Positions 8,841 to 59,487 of a DNA stretch of 64,000 nt are shown here, piece after piece. Made by a program: the position numbers and the translations under genes. Where the stretch lies: positions 24,661,870-24,725,869 of the forward strand of contig NC_091940.1 of the NCBI RefSeq assembly GCF_041260155.1, written 5' to 3'. This stretch comes from Ptychodera flava (lineage: Eukaryota > Hemichordata > Enteropneusta > Ptychoderidae). Positions within the stretch are counted from its first letter, which is position 1, and each line of letters starts with the position of its first letter. The notes beneath the pieces were generated by a model. It ran no database searches and was not told the DNA's origin. It saw nothing but the letters and a program-made list of their open reading frames with translations.

Positions 8841-9107
8841 TTAGCGTCGGTTTGGTCTTCGACCTCTTCTATTATAGTGTCCCCGTCCTCTTCCTCTTCG
8901 CGTACCTCTTTGTGCAACACCAGTCCCGGCCATCATGCCGCCATAATTCATCGCGTGAACACCAGCATCGTAAGCAAATCCTCCGCCGGGATAGGAATGA
9001 TAACCACCCATTGCAGTACCAGTTCTTGAGGCATCCCTGAAGTTCGTTTGGCCGTGGTTAGGCACAGATGGTTGTACGTTTACATTAAAATAACCACCGC
9101 GGGAACC
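8841..9107 (-). CDS. ZNFX1: ZNFX1-like gene A, last exon: Gly/Arg-rich (RGG) tail
   Basis: The acceptor is 'cttttcag' before 'GGTTCCCGCGG' in phase 0, and the exon encodes 88 residues and a stop. It opens with GSRGG, continues through a Gly/Tyr/Met-rich stretch and ends in a basic block with RGRGRG and RRGRRPNRR. Homologous last exons exist in genes B and C, with the most constant part at the basic C-terminus. RGG tails typically bind RNA and promote condensates, so a granule or RNA-binding role is inferred. The middle of this exon is more diverged from B and C than those two are from each other. Confidence 0.75.
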   Translation of the reverse strand, partial: GSRGGYFNVNVQPSVPNHGQTNFRDASRTGTAMGGYHSYPGGGFAYDAGVHAMNYGGMMAGTGVAQRGTRRGRGRGHYNRRGRRPNRR

Positions 9108-28370: not shown

Positions 28371-28676
28371 TCAATACCAGTCAAAGTTGCTATTTTCCTC
28401 TTCATATTCAATACTAGCGCGTCGGCTTGGTCTTCGACCTCTTCGATTGTTTTGTCCGCGTCCCCTTCCTCCTCGATTACCTCTGGATGAATTTCCTCTT
28501 CCGGCTGTACTGCCATAATTCGTCCCATGAACACCTGTATTGTAAGTAGATCCCCTGCCTGGACTGGAACCCGTTCCCCTTCCGAAACCACCCCTCAAGA
28601 AACCACCATAGTTCGTACGGTTATGATTTGAGGCAGGTCGTGTCACGTTTGCATTATATACACCACCGCGGGAACC
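28371..28676 (-). CDS. ZNFX1: ZNFX1-like gene B, last exon: RGG tail
   Basis: Acceptor 'cttttccag' before 'GGTTCCCGCGG', phase 0, 101 residues and a stop. Contains GSRGG, LRGGFGRG, RGNRGGRGRG and RRGRRPSRR, then an extra acidic end (EYEEENSNFDWY) that runs past the position where A and C stop. The Arg/Gly content suggests RNA binding or condensate formation (inference). The extra acidic end is unique to B and could reflect loss of the ancestral stop. Confidence 0.75.
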   Translation of the reverse strand, partial: GSRGGVYNANVTRPASNHNRTNYGGFLRGGFGRGTGSSPGRGSTYNTGVHGTNYGSTAGRGNSSRGNRGGRGRGQNNRRGRRPSRRASIEYEEENSNFDWY

Positions 28677-43400: not shown

Positions 43401-44249
43401 TGGCAATCACAAGTTTACTGACCTAGTGACCTGCTGAGGTCAGGTGTTCAGTTTCTCGGGTGCTTTGGCCTGCGCGGCTGTGGCAAGCGAAGGGCCAGTG
43501 GGGACCTGGGCGGGAATACATACATAGTTCTGCTGTTGTACACAAAATGTATAATTATTCAATGTCGATTATTCCGTAGTCTTTGAATTTTTCACAAAGA
43601 TATTTTCTAACCCTTGCTGGCTGGTCATGTAGTACACGTGTACAGTCGGATGTACAAGTTTGTCGTTTTTCATCCCTGCACGTAAAGACTGAAGTGAACT
43701 GCTGTCGATCCTTCCAGGCCAGATAACGTTTGACAGACATATTTCGTTATCAATGAAATGAGTCCTGAGAATGGTTGGCCGATATCGTTTTTCGCACGAC
43801 TGGCGAAGTGAAAACCAATCTCCCTTATTCGGCGAAGTATATTTAGATGTAATGTAACTTGGCCTTGATCGATCATCGATCAGATCATGGAGCTAGTCAA
43901 ATCGTCACGTTTCCATAGTATTTTGGAAGGGTTTTCGTAATGTATAAAACATTTATAGCGAAAAAGATATCCAATTAGAAGTGACATGTTCGTGTGGTTT
44001 CATTTCCGGAGACTTAGTGTTTAAAATTAATAGTCGTCACAGCAATAGTACGTGGAAGCATACAGGACCTGGGTACCTGAGTGTTGGAATTCAGTTGTGC
44101 CTTGACAATCGGTTTTTGGATTGGGCTGGCTTTCACATTAGATCAGATTCTCTTTGTTGTAATTGATTTCACGTGAGAGTCGTTATAAGAAAGTCCAAGG
44201 ACGAATTGAAAGTATAATTATGTCGTTTTCAGGAGATCGCTGATAAACA
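40461..44249. other. Intergenic DNA between units B and C
   Basis: No gene recognised; frames are 95 codons or less without motifs. The stretch 41,540-41,830 matches 26,200-26,540 (shared 'aatattgggta' and surrounding sequence). A C run lies at about 43,206-43,220. The stretch 43,555-43,876 has two overlapping minus-strand frames of 61 and 68 codons with no recognisable family. Confidence 0.4.
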
Positions 44250-45650
44250 TTGTATCTATTTAATTAATATTATCTCAGATCGCTCAGCAGGCAACTTGAA
44301 AATGACCAGTCTGTTGGCAGAGAGTATGATATGGTTGTTTGTGTGAGTTTGCCAACAAGAAGGGGAAAGGTCAGTGACAAAGAGGTGGCAGCAGTTACCT
44401 AAACACTGGATAGAGGACAGAAGAGAGTTGCCTAGATGGGCATTGGGAAGCGGGGCCGCGAAATTTCAAGATATGAGGAGGTCGGAAAAACTAATGACCT
44501 AAAGGAGAATTGTTTAGATCGTGATAGGAGGGCATTTGCGAACATTTATCATTTTCCCTTTTTCGCATTTCTTCCTTTTCAATTATTTTACTTTGTATAA
44601 TAATCTCGGTCACCCAGATTGCTCTGCGGCGCACCCATCCGCCTGCCCCTATACACAGTCTGGGGTTTCCCAAGATCTGTGTAGGGCGGCGGCATGTGAG
44701 CTCCACAGAGCAGTCTGGGTAATTGAGATTGCCACTCTAAGTGTCAATAGCATGTTGAACTAATTTATAGTTGCTATTTCCCTAATCGGCTGGTTGTTGC
44801 TGCCCTGATGCACGTTTAAGTGAACATCGTTTTCAAAATATGTAATCTGCAAGCATATTTCATTTAAAAAACAGTTATAATTGGGTAAGAACAATTCGAC
44901 AGATTTCCGCATTCTAAATTTCTTTAGGCCTAATTGGCATATTTTTCTGTCAGCAAGAGAAAGCTGAAACATTCTACAAGGGGTCAACAACATGACTTGA
45001 ATTTAACGCAACAAGAATCTTTATTGTGTTCTATCTGGTATGAATATTGTAAATATTTAAGCACAAATCATTGCGATTTTGACCTCTCTATCAGGGCATC
45101 GGCTCCGAGTACCAACATATATTCACAAAATCGGAAAGATTAAGAACCGTGTATGGGTTATTAAAACACGCTAATGACAAACGATATCTTGTGTGTAGAG
45201 GGGAGAGGGTTCATCTCTTTTTCGATCATCTTAAGCAAAATCGGACAAACAAGACCAAAACCGTGTAAATCTGCGATATTCAACTCACCATCCAAATTTT
45301 ATTTTGAAATTTTTGTTGCAGAAAAACCTATTTTCAGCAATTAGTCGTATTATAGGAAGATCAAATTATAATTTCATCGTCCGCGTTTTAATATAAAACG
45401 TAACGAATTTCGTTCGACTTTGGCGTGTTTTATTGTCTACGGTCACCCCAAAACGAGTAAATAGTAAAGCACATATTACGTAGGGGATATATAAAATCGC
45501 AGCATCTTTACTTTTTACCAAAAGTATAAGATGCAAACCTACAAAGTCTCTAATAGGAAATGCATATTTGCTGTGTAGATTCTAATTATACTAATTATAT
45601 GTGATAAATCGACAAACTTCCGATGTATATCTCTTGACTAATTACAATAA
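44250..45650 (+). repeat. Intergenic segmental duplicate of about 5.43-6.90 kb
   Basis: Collinear with the stretch downstream of gene A, including the shared 125-bp MITE and the 'gacagatttccgcattctaa' block. It ends where the foldback element at 45.65 kb begins. Confidence 0.65.
44604..44728. mobile_element. Palindromic MITE-like element, 125 bp, second copy
   Basis: Same length and ends as the element at 5,767-5,891, with several substitutions. Position within the duplicated stretch is the same, so it is inherited with the unit rather than a new insertion. Confidence 0.65.
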
Positions 45651-45655
45651 TTAGA

Positions 45656-46620
45656 TATTATTCCCTAATATTTTTCTTCGTTAAGCGAAGGAAAATACGA
45701 GTGACGTAATGACCGTGTCACCACGAGTCGAAGACGAGTGGTGACACGGTCATTACGTCACGAGTATTTTCCGAGCTGAACGAAGAAAAATATTAGGGAA
45801 TAATATACTTATCACATGCACAAGCCAAGAATTCGTTATTTTTTGCAAAATAAAATAAGTTTTCCATGACGATTCCGCGTTTAAACTTTTGAACTACTTT
45901 AGGAATAATATCAGTACGCCGTGCACAAGTTGTCAATCATTTCCAGTCGTCCGTCGTGTGCGTTAGCAGGTTAGCGCTCACGTTCGTTAGTGTGTGGAGC
46001 AAATGACAGCTCTCGATCTACACGTAGGCTACCTTTCGCTAAGTTATACTGTATTTCAAAGATAGCATAGTCCTAGAAATTTATCACAGACGAAGATACG
46101 CTATTTTTCGGGAACAAATATCGACTGAATCTCGACGGCGCGAACACTGTAAACGTCGCGCCTGACCCTGTTTGCAATGCGTACGGAACCCCACGGTATA
46201 CGCGACCAGCTTCGAGTTCGTTGTTTCCGCAAATTATTCACGTAATTCCTTCGGAATATTCAGGCGGTACACTCTTGTGTTTACATTGTTCGGATTATTA
46301 ATGTCGTAGTCTGTGAAAATATCGATTTCATTACATGACTTTTGATCGTGGGAGAAACATCGGCCGCCATGTTGTTTGTTTACATATTTACGAGCACACC
46401 GAAGATCGACAAAAAAAGGTCCGACGCATCAAAATTGATGACATAGACGCGGGTTGTCGTGACGTAGAACGACCAGAGAATAAATCCCGTATTTTTTGTT
46501 CGGAGACGACAAACTTGGCTTGTGCATGTGATAAGATGTATGATACACTGTAAAATAGAGGGATATTATCACAAGTACATCCGACGAGTGAAATTTCGCT
46601 CATTGTCATGAACACTGTTT
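45656..46620. mobile_element. Non-autonomous foldback insertion of about 0.96 kb, with nested palindrome
   Basis: The left end (45,656-45,806) is a strong palindrome: 'ttattccctaatatttttct' and its complement enclose arms with 'gtgacacggtcattacgtca'. Just inside, 'cttatcacatgcacaagcca' near 45,809 recurs inverted as 'ggcttgtgcatgtgataag' near 46,517-46,535, giving a larger inverted pair. Sequence to the left aligns with unit A and sequence to the right with unit B, and neither contains this piece, so it is an insertion in unit C. No transposase. The exact right end is uncertain. Confidence 0.5.
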
Positions 46621-48896
46621 TCGTTAAGTCTTTGTTTTACTAGGACCAAACTACTATCAAGAAAATATCAAAGAGCAGATCATCCTATTTGTGTCAAATA
46701 CATTCACGAAATCGCAAAGATAAGGGGAAAGACCGAGGGTGATAAAAACACGCACATGACAAAGGCAACTCATTGCGTATAAAGGGGAGGGGGCTCATCT
46801 CTATTTCGACTATCGTGTGCAAATTCGGAAAACATACATTCCAAAGTTTCGGCATGAAAACCGTGATACAGACCGTGACTCTAAGTAACCATTATGACTT
46901 TGTTTTCTTGAAGTGTTTCTTGTTCAAGAACTTGTCAGTCAAACTTGCGAAAACGTATTTCAGTAACTTTTCGTGTTCAAGTTCAAATCATAATTCGTTC
47001 TCGGATTTTCGCCTTTCCATGCTTTAGTTTAGGAGAGGCGGATGGGAGTTAAGGTCAAATGCAACGAGCTTCGTGCGACAGGCGTGTGTTTCAATCGTTC
47101 ATTGTCTATATCAGCAAGTCAAACAAGTACAACTTTTTAAAAAATAGCAGAAATATATGGTTTTGTTAAAATAGCTGTATCTCCTACCTTCTTCAAAATT
47201 CTAAAAGCAAAATACACAATTATACAGTAGTTTCGAAGAGTATAACGCATGTTGTAACTTTAGTGAACGTGTGACATGATGAATGTAAGGTGAGTTGTAA
47301 ATAGATTATGATACACACATCTTGATTAATTTAGCGTGTCTGGGGCACACAGTCAACAAGAGGACATGATTACATGTACATTCGACCATGGGGTGGGATC
47401 TCTCTCATGCTTCGTGAATTATTAAATTGAACGCATCATGAAGATGCTCAAATTATTATCTCAACTTCGTCAAAAATCTACTCTGTTTGATACAAGTGCG
47501 TGAAAAAATGTACAAAATTGAGCTGTATATATAAAACATGCAGGAAACTGGCGTTCCACATATATTTATATGGAAGTACATCGCTGTCCATTCCAAGGTT
47601 TGTAACAGTTACGTAACTATCAGTGGTAATAATCAAGTTAATGTGCAACACAACAGCGCTAATAATTAATACTGTAATCTCCTTTCTGTTTACCACTCCC
47701 AAGTTTCAGCGAAGAATATACAGCAGTTTACTAATAATGACGAAAGGTTATTAAAATATCGATTCGGTCTTAAATGCATATACTGCATTTGGCAAGTCTA
47801 CGCACACAATTTTATATTTGGAAATAAGGACACATTAGCCATGTATATTGACAAAACATATCGGTAATATACCTTATATACATTGTAAAACCGTAAAAGT
47901 AATAACATTGAAAAAGTTGAAACGATCAGAACAAATGAATATCTTTTTTATATAGCTCTGTTGACTTAAAATTGTCTGCATGCACCATGCAAAATAAACA
48001 AAAGTAATTCATAGACACCCTATAGCATGGCGACACCTTTTCTTTGTACCAATTTATGAGTTGTGTTAAAGGTCGTATGCTCAGAGTCAAGAAATTGGCG
48101 AAATTGAATAATAAACAATATTAATAATTTCATCGAGATAAACGACAAGGTCTAGCAATATCAACCTTGTAACAATAATAGATTTACAATATCTTTCAAG
48201 TCTACTATTTGAAAACAGAAATCCAGATTTATGGATTTAGAAAGAAAAAAATCACAAATAGGATCTGAGATGAGTATGATTTAAAAAATTTCAAAATGTT
48301 AACGCATAAGAAAATTATATTTTTAACGGAACATTAAGCGTCCGAATATGTATTTGTAAACTTTCAGAAGAAATTAAAGAAAATGTCAAAAACTAAAGAG
48401 ATGTTTATCCCCATCGTTCATAATAATCATCATTGCAATATTCTATCACTATACCTGGTTGAATTTAAGATAAAGTAATGTCGCTTATAATTTTTGTGGA
48501 TTTATTTGAAGCTGTCTTTGAGTTTTTGATTTTGCAACAAAAAAAGTTTATCTCTGGCGAATGTCGTTCACTATTGACCATAAACTAAACGGTGACGCGG
48601 AAAGTATTATATATAAACATATTAAGACACCGAAACCTACATGTAAGCAACAGATATTATTACATTGGATGTACTTATGGTTGTATTTGTCTGTTTAGGG
48701 CGTATAAGTTGCAATTCAGAATCAAACAGGAATATTTAAGCCATGATGTAAGATTCAACTCTGTCATGAAAATTATGCAAACATACTTCCGTGACTGGCA
48801 TTTTTATTTTGTAACGCATGTTGCCACTGGTGGTGTAGAAGACAGGTGGAACCTCAATGCACGTCACGGTTGCCATTTCCCTCTTCACCTTCGATA
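46621..48896 (+). repeat. Intergenic duplicate of about 26.52-28.37 kb, downstream of gene C
   Basis: Collinear with the stretch downstream of gene B through to the last coding exon. No gene. A candidate poly(A) signal for gene C (AATAAA on the minus strand) lies at 48,803-48,808, about 90 bp beyond its stop. Confidence 0.6.
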
Positions 48897-49159
48897 TTAG
48901 CGTCGGCTTGGTCTTCGACCTCTTCGATTGTTTTGTCCGCGTCCCCTTCCTCTTCGATTACCTCTGAATGAATCTCCTCTTCCAGCTGTACTGCCATGAT
49001 TCGTCGCATGAACACCTGAATTGTAAGTAGATCCCCCGCCTGGACTGGAACCTGATCCATCCCTTGCAAAACCACCCCTCGAGAAACCACCAAAGTTTCC
49101 ACGGCCATGATTGGAGGCAGGTCGTGTCACGTTCTCATTATAGAAATCACCGCGGAAAC
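48897..49159 (-). CDS. ZNFX1: ZNFX1-like gene C, last exon: RGG repeat 3 and basic tail
   Basis: Acceptor 'ctttttcag' before 'GTTTCCGCGG', entered in phase 1, with 86 residues completed and a stop. Reads GFRGDFY, SNHGRGNFGGFSRGGF, AGRGDSFRGNRRGRGRG and RRGRRPSRR. It is the only one of the three RGG exons of gene C that retains the ancestral basic terminus and stop. Inferred role: RNA binding or condensation. Confidence 0.78.
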
Positions 49160-49435
49160 CTGAAAAAGTCAGATTTAAAATTCACGTAATGTACTACGAT
49201 ATGCAAACTAGGGTCACTGCCCAACTTTCACAAGTGTTTCAGTTATCTATCTTCCTATGAGACCGCGATATAGATACGCACACATCATGAGCCTCGAGCC
49301 TTTCCTCAGTATATTTTACCAAACTGGGAATTACAGTAGCAAGTTAGTGGAAATGTTTCTTAGAAATGGCGACGTAACCTACGGGTCCTTCTTAAAACTG
49401 TGCTGACGCTGAAGACACGGCTTCAACTCCTGATA

Positions 49436-49868
49436 TAGACTCTCCACAGTCGCTGTGCCTTGTTTTGTGCGCGCCGCGATGGGTCTGCATTCGAAGGCTG
49501 TGCAGCTGTGAGCACGCGCTGCCAGACACAGCGACTGTCCGTTCTTGCAAGGATATGAATATTCATAAGGGTAGTGACGTCAAAAGAAACACCTATCTAA
49601 CTGGGCGGAGAGAATATATACTAGTAGCTGGTAGACCTATATACGCTGTATGTTTTTATTTTTCATTTTTAATTTTATTTGGCTATGGTACTTGTCATTT
49701 TTGTTTTGATTAACGGATGTGTGGAGTTCTATAAAGTACCCGGATCAGGCAGAAATCCGACCGGTCGCTTGCAAGAACGTCCAGACCCTGGGATTCGCGT
49801 CGCGTCTCTGAAGGGCGCGCGCGTGTTCCAACAGGGAAGAACGCGAATCGCAGGGTCTCTGCCAGACT
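49436..49868. mobile_element. 433-bp hairpin-ended insertion in an intron of gene C, 10-bp target duplication
   Basis: Flanked on both sides by 'actcctgata' (49,426-49,435 and 49,869-49,878), which occurs once at the matching intron sites near 50,549 and 51,257. Both ends fold: 'cacagtcgctgtg' pairs with 'cacagcgactgt' (49,527-49,538), and 'cagaccctgggattcgcg' pairs with 'cgcgaatcgcagggtctctg'. Inner inverted words 'gttcttgcaagg' and 'cttgcaagaacg' face each other. The interior is AT-rich and non-coding. A 9-10 bp duplication suggests a Mutator-like relative, but this is not certain. Confidence 0.75.
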
Positions 49869-50068
49869 ACTCCTGATACAATCACTGTTTATCAGTTATA
49901 CCATCAATCATATAATAGGAAAGATGTGACCAATCATAATTGAACTACCTTTAACAGAACCTTGGTAAATTTATGAAGTCTACGTGGAATGTTATACTTA
50001 AGTTGAGTGAGTCAACAATTAAGCTTCCAAATACGCATGACAGATTGGTTCTCATGTATGTCACATAC

Positions 50069-50314
50069 CTCGGTTTTCCTTCATTCTTCTGTTACCTGAA
50101 TGGTCTGATCGATTACCTCTAGATGAATCCCCTCTTCCGGCTGTACTGCCATGATTTGTCGCATGAACACCTGCATTGTAAGTAGATCCCCCGCCCGGAT
50201 TGGAGTCCAATCCACCCCTTCCAAAACCACCTCTCGAGAAACCACCAAAGTTCCCTCGGCCATGGTTGGAGGCAGGTCGTGTCACGTTGTCATGATAGAA
50301 ACCACCGCGGAACC
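50069..50314 (-). CDS. ZNFX1: ZNFX1-like gene C, internal RGG exon (repeat 2)
   Basis: 246 bp, phase 1 to phase 1, acceptor 'tttttttcag' and donor 'CGAG|gtatgt'. Its N-terminal part equals the RGG exons (GFRGGFY, GRGGLDSN, AGRGDSSRGNR). Its C-terminal part (SDHSGNRRMKENRG) is not RGG but matches the end of the upstream small exon. It is therefore a fused, duplicated exon. Because phases are symmetric, it can be inserted or skipped without changing frame. Confidence 0.72.
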
Positions 50315-50746
50315 CTGAAAAAAAGTCAGATGTAAAATTCACATAACGTGCCTCGATATACAAACTAGGGTCACTCCCCCACTTTCACAAGTGTTTCAGT
50401 TATCTATCTTCCCATGAAACCGCGATATAGATACGCACACACCATGAGCCTTACCTCAGAATATATATGGGAAATGTTTTTTAGGAATGGCGACGTGACC
50501 TACGGGTCTTTCCTAAAACTGTGCTGACGCTGTAGACATGGCTTCAACTCCTGATACAATCACTGCTTATCAGTTATACTATCAATCTTATATTAGGAAA
50601 GATGTGACCAATCATAATTGAATTACCCTTAACAGAACCTTGGTCAATTTATAAGGCCTGCGTGAAATGGTATATTTAAATTGAGTGAATCAACATTTAA
50701 GCTTTCAAGCATGCATGATGGATTGTTTTTCATGTATGTCACATAC

Positions 50747-50992
50747 CTTGGTTTTCCTGAATTCTTCTGTTACCTGAATGGTCTGATCGATAACCTCTAG
50801 ATGAATCTCCCCTTCCGGCTGTACTGCCATGATTCGTCGCATGAACACCTGCATTGTAAGTAGATCCCCCGCCCGTATTGGAGTCCAATCCACCCCTTCC
50901 AAAACCACCTCTCGAGAAACCACCAAAGTTTCCACGGCCATGGTTGGAGGCAGGTCGTGTCACGTTGTCATGATAGAAACCACCGCGGAAAC
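50747..50992 (-). CDS. ZNFX1: ZNFX1-like gene C, internal RGG exon (repeat 1)
   Basis: 246 bp, phase 1 to phase 1, acceptor 'ctttttcag' and donor 'CAAG|gtatgt'. Nearly identical in plan and sequence to the exon at 50,069-50,314, including the chimeric end (SDHSGNRRIQENQG). The intron flanking it also matches its neighbour, so exon and intron were duplicated together as a unit of about 0.68-0.71 kb. Confidence 0.72.
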
Positions 50993-51453
50993 CTGAAAAA
51001 GTCAGATTTAAAACTCACATAACGTACTACGATATGCAAACTAGGGTCACTGCCCCACTTTCACAAGTGTTTCATTCATCTATCTTCCCATGAAAATTCG
51101 AGATATAGATACGCACACACCATGTGCCTTTCCTCAGTATATTTTAACAATTGGGGAATGGCAGTAGCGAGTTATGGGAAAGGTTTGTTAGGAATGGCGA
51201 GGTGACCTACGGGTCGTTCTTAAAACTGTGCTGACGCTGTAGACATAGCTTCAACTCCTGATACAATCACTGCTTATCAGTTCCACAATCAATCAAATAA
51301 TAGGAAAGATGTGACCAATCATAATTGAAGCACCTTTATTAGAACCTTGGTCAATTTATAAAGCCTGTGTGGAATGGTTTACTCAAGTTGAGTGACTCAA
51401 CATTTAAACTTTCAAGCATGCATGATGGATTGGTTCCCATGTATATCACATAC

Positions 51454-51544
51454 CTTGATTTTCCTGAATTCTTCTGTTCCCTGAATAAGAGTCAGTTGAC
51501 ATTCGGGCCTGGCGAAAATCGTAAAAGCTTTGCTTACCCAAGTG
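51454..51544 (-). CDS. ZNFX1: ZNFX1-like gene C, small C-terminal exon (30 codons + 1 base)
   Basis: Donor 'CAAG|gtatgtg' in phase 1. The acceptor is taken as 'aagtacag' at 51,545, because only this keeps the frame homologous to genes A and B (QAR, STD, SGNRR) and joins the phase-1 RGG exon. The acceptor has a weak pyrimidine tract: compared with B, the 'ttattatattag' acceptor has been lost and the new AG lies five bases into the old exon. It also has about five extra codons near its start. Confidence 0.6.
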
Positions 51545-52045
51545 CTGTACTTGGAAGATGATTTGTTGAGTTAAGTTGCTGTTTATTTCATGGTAAATAC
51601 GCGTAAATGTCCACGTACGTTCTGAATACCATATTTACTTTTATATTTTAATTCACATTCTTGTCAAACAAGTGGTCTTCCCTTTATTACACGACGTCAA
51701 TAGTCCTCTGTTGTTTTGATCGCCTTTATGATTTGACTTAGATGGAAAATAAACCTCTGAAAATATCTGACAAGAGCCAACGGTATGTTCTTAGTGTTAA
51801 AAATAACATTCGTGCAGAGTTTATGTACATTTCCTACATATAGGGATCGATCATATATTTGCCACTGACTAATGATTGGCCTTACAGTTACCCTCATTTT
51901 CAAGTCTGTGTCTTAGGTCCCGTGAGAGCTAAACGTGAAGCTATGGTAGAATGACACAAGAATATATTTATGTGCAAATCTGTACGGTATATTAGGTTTC
52001 TTTTTGACATATGTCCCCATTACATAAGCAAACTTGATACAGTAC

Positions 52046-52123
52046 CTGTACGGATGCTGTTTTCATTCTGTATGGTAGATACCAATCTGAATGTGCAGGT
52101 GATGCAAACTGCCTGTCGGCCTC
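52046..52123 (-). CDS. ZNFX1: ZNFX1-like gene C, 26-aa exon
   Basis: Acceptor 'tggaattag' and donor 'CAG|gtactg', 78 bp, phase 0. Begins EADRQFASP and ends SVQ. Same length as in A and B. Confidence 0.78.
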
Positions 52124-52563
52124 CTAATTCCAAAATCAATATCGTGTAATAGAAGTTAATACTTTAGAAAAGAAGGCTTTCTATCCAAACACAACATCTA
52201 CTGTGCAAAGTCATGTCCTGCCACTATTTGGAAGATAAGAGTACACAATTTGACATCTGGTGAGTCATACATACGAAATGTCAACTCTACAGCCACTTGA
52301 GAATTTCATAAGCGTTTGAGAAGCATTGAATTGAATCATAACCCTCAATCACAGATCAATATTATAATGTAATTTTCAGCTATGAAATGTTAATGATAAT
52401 TAGAGAATAACAATGTTAATTTCTTTCATGTGTTCCACACATCGTTTATGGCTACATTTTAAATATGTAAAGTTAATGTTTTGTAATATTTGTGCAGTTT
52501 TGGATACATGTTTTTGAAATTAAATCTGTATATTATACTATTAATTAGTCTGTCATTACTCAC

Positions 52564-55500
52564 TTTTGCAATATTTTCCGGAAATCTCCAGACATCATTC
52601 CTTTGGTCAGTGTATTGCCTAACTCTTTGGGGACATTGGTCACATACTGGTCCTTGTACGTTCTGTTCATTGTTTAAGTTTGATTGCTCAGGTGTCTCTA
52701 TGGCATGGTAAAATATATGACCATGGGTGCACTTGTACCATTCATCTTTTCCAAATGTTCTGAGGCTGCCAACCGTGCAGGGATTAAGTTCAGGCGGAAT
52801 ACTGTGTCCTGCAAGTACTTCAGGATGAAGGCTTTTAAATGTTGATAGCACATTTAATAGTGTGGTAGGATGTAGCTCCTCGAGCAGGACTTTTTCAGCG
52901 TAATCACAAAAATCATGCACAGGTCGTCCTGGTAACGACCTATATGCCGAACGTTTTGGTGTCGACACCTCAGAGAAAACATGTCTGTTTTGGAGACCAT
53001 ACACGGCAACAAGAATGCAGGTCTGGAGAACAATACTTCGATACTCTTCACTCTCTTCAGGACAGAGCGGATCACTTTCGCAGCCTGCAACTTTAAATAT
53101 CTGTTCATCAATCGACATTTGTAATGATCTAGCCTTATGGGTGATCATATCTAGAACTTTAGAATCAGGAGTGCCCTTCTTTGTGTCTTTACAGTTCATT
53201 ACGGCAGATAACACTTCTTCTGTCTGTATTTTGGCATCTACAAGCTGTTCATAGGTCCTTATACTGTTCTCGATGGGTATCATTGTTGATAAGCTGGTTG
53301 TTGTCTCAATGGCCTGCTCAAATAGGGGACGGTGTATACGAAGAACACTAGTGCGTACTAGCTTCTTAAGGTGTTCTCGTAATGGAACTACAAAATTAAA
53401 CATGTCAGGCACTTTGTTCATATGATCAATTGTAGCAATGATATATTTGGTCAAAGTATTGTAACGATTACAGCCTATGACAGGCTTCTGGCACTTTGGA
53501 CAAGTTTTCATACACAGTTGGTGTACTCGATTACAATCATTCGTTATAATTCCGAGCATCCATCGATCCATATCGTGTACCGCAAAGACATCTTTGCATC
53601 TTAGCTGAATAAAACGACTTCCATCAGAGTACGTTCTTCCAAAGAAAGCAGCAATTGCTTCTAGTTTCTTCCTATGGCAATGCCTGCACACTTCCGGACA
53701 CATTTCGCCACAGAGTCCAACACAAGTGTGACCACATTTCAGTTCTTTCATGCATGGGTTGTTACATGGTGGTCTTTCACAAGGTTCCCAACACAGATTG
53801 TTGCATTGATGATGTACACAAGTCCATTTGCATCGCATATTGCAACGTTTACCAAGTGATTTATGCTCACAAGGATGTGGGTGCTTCATTGTGCACACAC
53901 TGCATATTTCATAACATTTGTTCATGCATGGATGGCCACAGAGAAGCATCCGCTCACATTTCTGGGTGCATATGTTATGACGACCCCTTGAAAGTTTACA
54001 AATGCCACATATACCAGTGCATTTGTGGCCACAGTCAAGAACTGAGTCGCATTTCAGAGGACAAAACGGTTTTCTTTCACAACATTTTATGCTAATTTTA
54101 TGACCACACTCTTCAAAAATCTTCCGGACGTCCTTCAAACAGATGTCATCACACTTTTCACAACACAGTTTGGTACAATTATGACCACACTTCAATGTTC
54201 TATCGCAAGGCCATTTACAATCACTGTGAATCCCATTCTTAATGCAGTCACCGCAAAGTCCCTGACATACATGCCGGCATTGTAATAGTACACCACATCT
54301 TTGGTTGCAGTTCTTTTCTGTGTAGAAACAAGGACCTTTGACTTTGTGGCCACAAGACCAGTCCTGATGTATTATCTGCACGTGACATAGATTTGCACAT
54401 TTTTCACCACATTTCTTTGGACAAGTATGGGTACAGCTCAGTTTTCTTTCACATGGGAGTTTGCATACGTACATCGACTCGTCTTCCGAACACTTCATAG
54501 TCTGAGTATGGCTACACTTTGTCGGTTTTTTCTTCATCATTACTTGGCATTCATCAGGGCAGTCATCTGAACATTTCTCGGTACACCGGTGCCCGCAGTC
54601 AAATACTTTCGTACACTTGTCTTGGCATTTGAATTCAGATGGATTTTGAGAGCATCTCATCTTTTGTTCATGATTGCAAATAGGTAACAATTTTTGCACT
54701 GAAACTGTACAGTCCTTGCATCCCTCGAAACATTGCAGAGGACAAGGGTGTTTTCGCTCGCACATCTTAGGACATGGTTGCTTACAATCGAAGTCAGCAG
54801 GGTCTTGATAGCATGGTACATTCTGTATATGACCACATTTAGGAATTTGTTTCTCGACCTTGATGATACATTTATCACAGCCTTTAAAACAGAGCAATGG
54901 ACATGGATGCCCATTTTCACACTTCTTTTGGCAAGATTTGCGACATTTGAAACTTCCAGGGTCCTGATAACAAGGTACCATTTGCAGGTGACCACATGAG
55001 GGGATTTCTTTTTCCATCTTCACTATACAGGGTCTGCATTTTTCATGACATTTTAAAGGACAGGCATGACCTCTTTCACACTTCTTTTCACATGGCGCTT
55101 TGCACCTGAACTCCTGTGGGTCTTGATAGCATGGCACCATCTGCCTGTGTTCACAGTTGGGGATAATCTTCTCCACAGGCACCATACAGTGTCTGCATTG
55201 TATGTAACACTTAAATGGACAAGGATGCCCTTTTGCACAGATATGTTTGCATTTTTCTTGACAGTCGAAATTTTCGGGCTCTTCAAAACAGTACATTTCT
55301 TGGACATGGCCACATTCTGGGATCGTTCTTTCCACTCTAATTCTGCACTTTCCACAGTCTTTATAACAAATCAAATTACAGTTGTGTTGTCCAGCATCAC
55401 AGGTTCTTGCACAAGGCTTCCGACACTTGTATTCTTCATGGTTTGCATCGTAAGGATGGCAAAAAAGTGTGCAGACATGGCCACATTCCAACCTAGTTTC

Positions 55501-58500
55501 ACAAAGACGACTGCATCCGCCTTCTGGAGCAGCATTAAAATCGTCTCCACGGGCACACTTAAGGATGGTTGCGGGATGATTTCTGCAGAATATTTTCAGT
55601 GACTTTCCTATTTTGCCAGCTTTTTGTAGGTCTCCAACAATATTTTTCCACAGCTGGTTTTTCAGACCAAGAAGTTTAAAATTTCCTATGCAGTAGAAGC
55701 CCATCTTTGCTCTGCTTAAGGCTACACAGACTCTGTTCTCTATTTTAAGAAATCCGATCTGTCCCTGTTCATTGCTCCGTACAAGTGACAACAGAATGAT
55801 ATCATTTTCTTCACCTTGAAAGTTGTCGACTGGGCAGATTCTTACGCCTTCAAACACAGACCGCGGCATCATGTTTTTCAGCTGGATAACTTGAGCTGTA
55901 TACATGGTCAGAATTGATATTTGAGTAGGTTTATAACCCTGCTTCAAGAGGTAATGGCAAAAGGCAACAAGAAACTTGGCCTCGTGTACATTTGACCTGC
56001 TTCTTATGTCATCCATAAAGGTTTCTTGTTGTTCATGGTTTACAAAGTAAATATTACTACTCACACCCATGATGTCGTCATAAGCATCTACAGAAGGGTG
56101 ATTATGCAGATCACTGTAGATGTGTTTCATCAGGCTAGCTATTTCAGGTCTCATTCTGTGTTGGATATTTAGAGTATTGTACTGCAAGTTGTTTTCAATC
56201 ATGCGTTCAAAGAGTGACATGTCTAAATTGAAATCTTTTGCAAGTCTATACACTGTTGGATTTGGGCGAAGCTGTTGGTGGTCTCCGATCAATATAAGGT
56301 GTTGACATTCTGATGTGAGTGTTGTGATTATGTGTGACTCGAGGACTTCTGCTGCTTCCTCCACCACAATTATCTTTGGTCGTACCATGCGTAACAGGGA
56401 ACTATATTTTGCAGCTCCGGTTGTTGTCATGCCAATCACCTTTGCATCCTTCAAGACACGAAGGTCTTCCTCTTGACGCACTTCCTTAAGTCTCAGAGTT
56501 TCTCTGTCGTATTCTCCCACAGCTTCCAAAAGTGAGTCAACAATCTTCCTATGCAAAGCAAAGGACCAGTAGCGATAAAGTTTCCACCTTTCATGTAAGT
56601 TAAGAGCCCATACGTTGGATATTTTATTAACTTCTTCCTCTGTCATTGACGCTGTATCAGTTATGAGATCTTGTAAAATAGTAATTTGATACTCAATATG
56701 TTTGTCTTTCATTGCCGCTGTGACATCAGTCTTCCTTGATTTTGCGTTTGCTGTTCTATTGGACCTTGTGTAGTGCTCTTCCAAAAGCACCCGAAGCTGA
56801 TCATAGAGATGGTCGTGGTCGGCTTGCTGCGCACCAATATCAATTTCATCATTTTCTAGCATTCTAGATCTATTGATGTAGTCAGCTTCTCCTTCAGCTT
56901 CGATTGTCCTTTCTGTTGCACAGTCAACATTGGATAAGTCTTGTGACATGATATCAGTAATGTTTGTGATAGTATGACCTCTTAGCTGTTTGTTCTCACG
57001 GGATATCTTCTCTATATCGTCCTGGTGTGATGTTTTCATTTGCACTTGTGGATGCCGTAACTCAGATATTTTCTCTATCAACCAGAAGTTTATAATATCA
57101 CAGATGTCTTTGTCATCTTCCTTCTGCTTTCCCACGACCATTTTATTTGTCAACATACTTTTCTTTTGTATGTCTAACATGACATGTATGATATTATATG
57201 TGCCACTAGCTTTTGCATTATCGAAGCGCTGCGTAATTGTAGATTTCTGAGATTCCAAGGTTTTACGAATAGTGTAGCTAGCATCTCTCCCATGGAGGGT
57301 AGATCGTATCTTTGAAAGTTGAAACTTTTCTAAAATCTCACTTTTACTCCTTGAACCAATTCGTACAATGCCGTGTTCCAAAAACTGGAAGACGCCTTCA
57401 AGAAACTGGTCAAGTGCATGATTTGTATAACATACAATCAAAATAGGTGAACAAACATCATGCTCACCTGTTTCAATCTGCTCATCGTTACATCTTCTAC
57501 ACCATACTTTGTGGTTGTGGAGAAGCATTTTCATTATCTTCAAACCAACATGTGTTTTTCCTGTACCAGGGGGTCCTTGTATGATCGCGAATTCTTTTGT
57601 GAGAGCAGTTTTAAGTGCCCTTAACTGAGATTCATTAAGTCGTAACTTCTCTGCTGTTGGCCATCGTGACATATCAAGAACACATACAGGGAACTCTCTA
57701 TATACCATTTCACGCGTGACTCGATGACGGTTACGTCGGAAGAATGGAAGAGCAAAGTCTTTTTCTGGCATCTTCCAGTCTTGATACATCAGAGGTGCAA
57801 AGTCATATAAGGGGTTCTGATTTTCATTCAAACGCAAGTATTGTGGTTCATCAATGGATCTTTTACAGTAAACTATGTATTTCTCAAAAGGAAGTTTACC
57901 CTCACCAAGTTCTTGTAGACCTTCGAGAACATATCTATTTGCCTCAAAGTAAGCAGTAGTCTCAACCATCTTAAAGGCATCTTCAGGTGCTGTTCTGAGC
58001 GTGTCCTCTATACTGTGGAACTTCAGTACAACCCTGAACCTTTTCAATTTATCAATGTCCCTGTTGGCAACTGTCGCAAACATCACTGTCTGGAAATTGT
58101 CCTTTGTAAGGCAGACCAAACCACCATATAGCAGACGCTTTGTGTGATTCCATTGCACATGCCTCAACTGATGTTTGTCAAGACTTACTTCATGACAAAT
58201 CCCCTCACTTTGCATGCAGTCTGGTTGTAGTACATGCACGTTGTAATACATACGAACATCAGTTAGCCGCTGTTGTTGTGATTTCTGCAATTTCGAATTC
58301 ATTCGGACCTCACTGATACCATCTCTTAGAGGTGCCATGAAATCTTCTCTAAGCAGTCTAAATTGCACGTCAAGGTAGTCATCTATATCTGCAAATGAAC
58401 CTTTTGGTTTGTTTGGTCGAATGAAGGGCTTGATATCAGTAACAACATCCTCTAATCTTGGGAAGATCGGTATTTTTCGAAAATCTTCAGTTGGTTCTTG

Positions 58501-59487
58501 TATCACCCATTCCTCCCTTTGGCCTGTAAACTGACCACTACTTGAAAACTTTGAAACCACTCTTCCTTCACGAATTTTCTTAATTTCAGAGTCCCTGTCT
58601 TCTTCCAAGGCATAAACATCCTCTTTAATACCTTCCTCAATGTCTATGTTTTTATCATCCAGCATACGGACTATGTCTATGATGAGATTTAGAGTTGGTG
58701 CTAGGTCTTTGAATTTCCCAGGCATTCGTCGGAATAGTATCTTTGTGATGGTTACAAGTTGTCTCAGAATGGCTTCCGACCCACCGTCGAATTTACCTCT
58801 TTGGATATCAAGAAGGATTGTACTGAGATAACGTGGTACAGTTAATTTGAAAACATTACATTCACTGACCATGATAAGGGTGTGAATAACACTTTGTGGG
58901 GCAGTCGAGCAAGTGACAGCTCGACTCAGCGTCCTGAGAAGAAGGAGAAAATTATCATTCGATATTGTTGGCTTATCTATCAGTTCTGTGAATCCATTTG
59001 ATTCATCTGATATAGTCATTACAATATCTCTAGGCTCAGCCTCGTACAACCTTGCAAGCTTTGTAAAATTCAGCTGTTTTTTCGTGTCTCGCCTACGAGC
59101 ACGCTCGATCGAGTTTTCATTTCTAAAGTTGTCCTTCTTTCTTGCACCACCTGTATCGTGCACCTTTGGTCTTTTCTCAGGGTCAGAGTTAACAACGTTC
59201 CGTCCATATCCTGATGAGTCGGGTTTGCCATGTTTTACTGGCTGAGATGGATTTACATTTCCTTCATTCTTCAATGACCGATGTTGTTTCCTTCGAATAG
59301 GCATTTGCCTTGAAGTGGTTGAGGAAGTGTAATCGTCTCTTAAACTCTGTTGTGAGGGCACATGCCTACCGTCTTCTGCTATGTTCTGCTGCAATGATCT
59401 ATGTCGCTCCATACGGGTATGCTTTTGCTTTGAATTAGTAGCAGAAATGAAACTTTCTCCAGATCTGCGTCGTGAAGATGAAGCCAT
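52564..59487 (-). CDS. ZNFX1: ZNFX1-like gene C, giant coding exon (intact)
   Basis: Uninterrupted 2,308 codons, ending at 'GCAAAA|gtgagt'. In order: disordered Ser/Arg/Lys-rich N-terminus; conserved N-terminal region from about residue 130 (KKQLNFTKL); RLLREDF segment; Walker A GPPGTGKT at 638-645; long insert between the helicase halves; VVEEAAE with EE at 1043-1044; GDHQQLRP; DNFQGEEND; RVCVALSRAK at 1252-1261; NFX1 zinc-finger array at about 1325-1937; RZ-type finger from W2250 (WYKCTHGH...CDQC). With the small exons the protein is predicted at 2,615 aa, against 1,918 in human ZNFX1. The gain lies in the finger array and the RGG tail. The start is the ATG of MASSSRR, aligned with gene B; the frame continues upstream only through a TTG. 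The acceptor 'ctccctttag' lies near 59,627. Expected role: cytoplasmic RNA helicase and sensor; substrate not shown. Confidence 0.95.
54628..55425 (-). repeat. ZNFX1: Gene C: five tandem NFX1 finger repeats
   Basis: Exactly 798 bp, one 54-codon and four 53-codon units. Each has paired cysteines around GHPCP or GHACP, a CxxC, and a closing CxHxQ. More degenerate NFX1 fingers continue to about 53,677. Confidence 0.85.

Follow-up and report, generated by a model that had tools for sequence, protein, structure and literature searches.

The main finding of this study is that gene C, one of three tandem ZNFX1-like genes in a 64,000-nt window (the whole stretch of Ptychodera flava DNA analysed here; 39% GC), carries three in-frame RG-rich blocks in its predicted C-terminal tail, where genes A and B carry one each. 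This difference, proposed by an earlier sequence-only reading of the same DNA, is confirmed by our exon map. It is also borne out by a search of all six frames of the window for open stretches of at least 30 amino acids passing a Gly/Arg(/Asn) threshold, which returned five segments, three in C, one in B and one in A. On the sequence comparisons described below, the triplication is judged to be real and made by an ordinary mechanism, and gene C appears to be a variant, not previously described, of a known kind of protein, with a function that is predicted only. The explanation that fits best overall, and which we consider reasonably probable, is that the amplified hybrid exons are coding and included, and that the resulting three-block tail strengthens contacts with RNA and between copies of the protein.

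Gene array and relation to ZNFX1

The three genes lie on the minus strand, A at approximately 17.3-8.8 kb, B at 37.1-28.4 kb and C at 59.5-48.9 kb. They sit in segmental copies, those of B and C matching over approximately 7 kb at 84% with more blocks on either side, and the sequences identify them as a local array of ZNFX1-like genes. The Pfam ZNFX1 domain PF25396 scores 101.3 bits in C, 102.3 in B and 105.6 in A (cut-off 27), and AAA_11 and AAA_12 exceed the Pfam cut-off in all three. From its open reading frame and its Pfam and PDB matches, the main exon of gene C (52564-59487, minus strand) encodes an SF1 helicase, a Cys/His finger array and an RZ-like C-terminus. Its frame is unbroken and begins at a plausible ATG, which we infer to be the start codon; its donor is AAA/GTGAGT (the slash marks the exon end). 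The SF1 helicase motifs include Walker A (GPPGTGKT) at 656 and motif II (VEEAAE) at 1060, and the closest solved structure is PDB 9q9z, NFX1-type zinc finger-containing protein 1 (E 1.7e-269). An NFX1-like pattern matches C 11 times, whereas shuffled versions of residues 1381-2000 yield 0.275 matches on average, and a Pfam search of these residues of C for NFX1-type zinc fingers gave no match at E up to 10. The RZ-type finger PF20173 scores 14.0 bits in B and 13.3 in A and has no match in C, all below the cut-off of 27. The RZ-like end does contain WYKCxxGHIFYH...CDQC, in which the usual third Cys of the ligand pattern is not seen. This third cysteine seems to be absent at 52564-52800 and in the counterparts in A and B, which may bear on any ligase activity. 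The C tail also gave a weak Pfam hit to AGS_C (13.9 bits against a cut-off of 26.7), which was taken as chance.

Gene C resembles ZNFX1, a metazoan SF1 helicase, in its ZNFX1 Pfam domain, helicase core and long Cys/His array. The two differ at the C-terminus, since human and grouper ZNFX1 are described as ending in an RZ-type finger (PMC11959080, PMC12585102), whereas gene C is predicted to continue into a spliced RG/RGG tail, which is tripled. Three potential ZNFX1 genes have been reported in Aplysia (PMC9334734). A literature search combining ZNFX1 with tandem or gene duplication and invertebrates gave matches that were unrelated by title, and viral contigs searched for relatives of gene C yielded 5 pattern matches, with no relatives by tblastn. 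In genes A (at approximately 15393) and B (at approximately 32163) a one-base insertion, in each case absent from the other two genes, breaks the frame of the main exon, which in C is uninterrupted. Because dN/dS between the three genes is 0.22-0.32, these insertions suggest recent loss or sequencing error. Between the main exons of B and C, dS is 0.33-0.34.

Exon organization of the tail and origin of the hybrid exons

All features of the gene C tail described here lie on the minus strand. Exon 2 (52046-52123; 78 bp, phase 0-0), placed by alignment of the three genes and by its splice sites, is common to A and B. Alignment and splice sites likewise place exon 3 (51454-51544; 91 bp, phase 0 to 1), whose end, SGNRRIQENQ plus the donor, is the source of the 3' ends of the hybrid exons. 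We dropped a reading of exon 3 as a micro-exon because A and B have exons of 87 bp and 75 bp at this place; each also has a counterpart of the main-exon end, a 78-bp exon and one RG-rich last exon. Two internal exons follow in C, hybrid exon 1 (50747-50992) and hybrid exon 2 (50069-50314), each of 246 bp and phase 1-1, and each with 3 RGG, including one di-RGG, as given by frame, splice sites and motif count. The coding part of the last exon, with the stop codon (48897-49159; frame and motif count), encodes a block with 1 RGG and then a basic RGRGRG...RRGRRPSRR end. The last exons of B (28371-28676, minus strand) and A (8841-9107, minus strand) contain a single block with 3 RGG and 1 RGG, respectively. 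The intron before hybrid 1 (50993-51453, 461 bp) is homologous to the other two C introns, to the matching intron of B and, more distantly, to that of A. The intron between the hybrids (50315-50746) is 432 bp long, and that ahead of the last exon (49160-50068) is 909 bp long, being lengthened by an insert at 49436-49869. This 434-bp insert is flanked by 9-bp repeats (TATCAGGAG, minus strand) and has a partly inverted internal match, as in a foldback-like element; at the threshold applied, a search of the window gave no second copy. Two strong inverted repeats outside the exon map, at 45680-45805 and 44600-44745 (DNA folding z -14.5 and -7.6), are possibly small foldback or MITE-like elements. 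An AATAAA just 3' of the C stop codon (48803-48808, minus strand) is a candidate poly(A) signal; further AATAAA occur within the C introns, and 7 AATAAA and 2 ATTAAA are present between 48400 and 52600.

This map reproduces to the base the two internal 246-bp exons and the last exon recognized by the sequence-only reading, all three beginning with GFRG, and the interval 48897-50992 that it singled out coincides exactly with the stretch between the beginning of the first internal exon and the end of the stop codon. Its view of the internal exons as copies of the RGG exon holds for the core, but not for the whole exon. Over its first 206 nt each hybrid corresponds to the last exon, and over its final 40 nt to the end of exon 3, donor included, with the fusion point located only to within about ten bases. 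Both hybrids lack the basic RGRGRG terminus that the last exon encodes. Similarly, the phase 1 joins that it described are found in C, where the cumulative phase after exon 3, RGG1 and RGG2 is 1, 1 and 1, but not in A and B, whose last join is in phase 0. Alignment with A and B shows that C is 4 bases longer close to the end of exon 3 (51454-51461) and one base shorter where the RGG exon begins (in the region 50983-50992). These two changes compensate across one intron, giving a net difference of one codon and moving the intron from phase 0 to phase 1. Since the phase-1 state is common to exon 3, to the two hybrids and to each of the three RGG starts in C, the alignments are most simply read as a phase change that came before the amplification.

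In the usual tandem exon duplication a whole exon is copied and the breakpoints fall in introns. Gene C has the adjacent homologous exons and copied introns expected of such an event; in C, however, the breakpoints fall within two exons, and the new exon is a hybrid. Because the hybrids match the last exon in their core and exon 3 in their 3' 40 nt, and both flanks copy one intron, we propose that a first tandem duplication had one breakpoint within exon 3 and the other within the last exon. Its product would have been an in-frame hybrid exon, made of the RGG core and the 3' end and donor of exon 3, lying between two copies of one intron. A second round would then have copied the hybrid unit to give hybrid 2, in the order of events that we consider likely. 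An unrooted tree of the four units, drawn without support values, groups RGG1 and RGG2 together and joins the last block to that of B. The three C introns differ by 10.7-12.6% from each other and by 15.3-17.5% from the matching intron of B, which places the duplication in C after the split of B and C. The core synonymous sites (approximately 53) disagree, with dS of 0.134 between the last block and B and 0.17-0.25 between the last block and the hybrids. Tandem Repeats Finder (TRF) reported no arrays at 44000-53500, because the spacing of the units (678 bp and more) exceeds its longest period of 500. A collapsed or duplicated haplotype in the assembly could in principle imitate such a structure, and only one assembly was available. 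However, the units of C differ by 8-13% among themselves, which argues against this explanation, as does the private 434-bp insert with 9-bp flanking repeats in one intron, and we regard an assembly artefact as extremely improbable. The hybrid exon of C indicates that a single duplication broken in two exons can yield a frame-neutral, splice-ready exon in one step.

Coding potential and splicing of the hybrid exons

Neither hybrid shows a stop codon or a length difference, whereas none of 1518 windows of 246 nt in the C introns is open in the tested frame. When the 235 GT and 240 AG sites of the region were ranked by a position weight matrix (PWM), exon 3, hybrid 1 and hybrid 2 had the second-, third- and fourth-ranked donors, and hybrid 2, hybrid 1 and the last exon had acceptors ranked first, 15th and 16th. 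Exon 2 scores weakly by this matrix (donor 32 of 235, acceptor 57 of 240), and the top-ranked GT (exon end 50455) lies inside the intron between the hybrids and is unused in the exon model. Between the two hybrid cores, 2 of 151.5 nonsynonymous sites and 5 of 52.5 synonymous sites have changed (Fisher p 0.013). In this test, which counts 7 differences in total, the probability of two or fewer nonsynonymous changes at intron rates is 3e-7 to 6e-6 if both copies were unconstrained and 0.003-0.011 if one was; at the synonymous rate the corresponding values are 3.6e-5 and 0.022. Exon-limited gene conversion as the cause of the low dN is not favoured, the dS between the hybrid cores (0.10) being close to the intron divergence. 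Because nonsynonymous changes in the cores are few relative to the synonymous sites and to an intron divergence of approximately 12%, both hybrids probably encode protein, although these numbers are low and the signal is weaker in other comparisons. Compared with the last block, the hybrids appear weakly constrained, with 12 and 10 nonsynonymous differences of 152 (P 0.012-0.092; dN/dS 0.48 and 0.28). The fused 3' 40 nt of the hybrids contain 3 differences, and this part looks unconstrained because the counts over the whole hybrid exon even out at 5 nonsynonymous and 5 synonymous (dN 0.028, dS 0.088).

The open frames, the high-ranking donors and the amino-acid constraint in the hybrid cores all speak against the internal exons being dead remnants that are always skipped, a view to which we give very little credence. 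Tandem exon duplications have often been linked to mutually exclusive splicing (PMC9013439), by which one block would be chosen per transcript. A choice between hybrids that differ by only 2 nonsynonymous core changes would, however, do little, and the frame presents no obstacle to joint inclusion; such a mechanism in gene C is even harder to credit. Most likely, the hybrids are ordinary coding exons that would usually be included in vivo.

The suggestion that symmetric phases would allow inclusion to vary by splicing agrees with our map, in which leaving out either hybrid or both keeps the frame. In addition, both hybrids contain a donor-like site, CAG/GTAACA (at exon ends 50774 and 50096, ranked 10th and 11th of 235), where exon 3 has GG, and its use would trim each hybrid by 27 nt in frame, from 246 to 219 bp. 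Whether each hybrid is skipped or included as 219 or 246 bp, all 9 resulting arrangements stay in frame and share one stop codon. It is conceivable, therefore, that the hybrids are regulated cassette exons (0, 1 or 2 copies, of 219 or 246 bp) giving isoforms with 1, 4 or 7 RGG. We treat this possibility as tentative, since exon symmetry follows automatically from this type of duplication, and the main donors and acceptors are near-identical among the copies, so that nothing visible separates inclusion from skipping.

RGG content and predicted function of the tail

The predicted tail of C is 307 amino acids long and contains 22 RG and 7 RGG, compared with 152 amino acids, 10 RG and 3 RGG in B and 143 amino acids, 7 RG and 1 RGG in A; the main exon of C has 5 RG and no RGG. 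Among 5000 composition shuffles of the C tail, none reached 22 RG and 10 reached 7 RGG; together with the open frames of the hybrids, these counts speak against a chance origin. The claim of three RGG blocks is correct in that there are three RG-rich blocks, but these are unequal. Six of the 7 RGG lie in the internal hybrid exons, and the last block keeps one, with FRGD and ARDG at positions where the hybrids carry RGG. With two, one or no hybrids spliced in, the total is 7, 4 or 1 RGG, in frame in each case. A di-RGG consists of two RGG separated by 0-4 residues, and a di-RGG or tri-RG defines an RGG/RG-box protein. Each hybrid has one di-RGG (RGGFGRGG); the last blocks of the three genes have no di-RGG, and all of them contain a tri-RG. 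The tail is presumably disordered. A link between G-quadruplexes and coding (PMC11789052) was also considered and set aside, as the counts of two-tier motifs (2 in each hybrid, 1 in the last block of C, 2 in B and 1 in A) do not set the C exons apart.

Comparison of the last block of C with that of B gives dN = dS = 0.134, suggesting that the RGG block evolves fast between genes and that its sequence drifts while RG-richness is kept. This finding, together with RGG counts that vary widely (1 in A, 3 in B and 7 in C), is what would be expected if the three-block tail were translated but its length were irrelevant, the amplification having drifted to fixation. The few nonsynonymous changes between the two hybrid cores do not fit such neutrality well, and we see it as possible without favouring it.

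According to the explanation that we prefer, the extra blocks would most likely raise the number of weak contacts that the helicase makes with RNA and with itself, and more weak contacts would in turn lead to greater RNA retention or condensation. Analogy suggests that tripling would make the multivalent binding of the tail to RNA stronger. The link between RGG amplification and condensation is physically reasonable because phase separation is reported to occur more readily with engineered double and triple LAF-1 RGG proteins than with one RGG domain alone (PMC6065366), and it is from these engineered repeats that we infer stronger RNA binding or condensation by the C tail. Overall, the interpretation given in the sequence-only reading, which pointed to stronger RNA binding or condensation and to variable splicing, is supported in part. 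The LAF-1 RGG-RGG-RGG protein and gene C share the tandem repetition of an RGG block. They differ in that the former was engineered from a P granule protein, whereas the repetition in C is natural, arose by exon amplification and belongs to a ZNFX1-type helicase. For ZNFX1 itself, binding of dsRNA as part of antiviral immunity has been proposed, as has control of mRNA stability (PMC11959080), and C. elegans ZNFX-1 is reported to localize to Z granules (PMC9276528); these studies link ZNFX1 to dsRNA sensing and to perinuclear condensates. In our literature search on ZNFX1 and RGG, no listed title concerned a ZNFX1 RGG tail. We speculate, with considerable reserve, that gene C may be a natural counterpart of the engineered triple-RGG scaffold, in which the inclusion of 0, 1 or 2 hybrids would adjust how strongly RNA condenses in antiviral or silencing responses. 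If the C tail is fully translated, genes A, B and C would provide a natural comparison of one versus three RG-rich blocks on related helicases, and whether RGG valency tunes ZNFX1 function would become directly testable.
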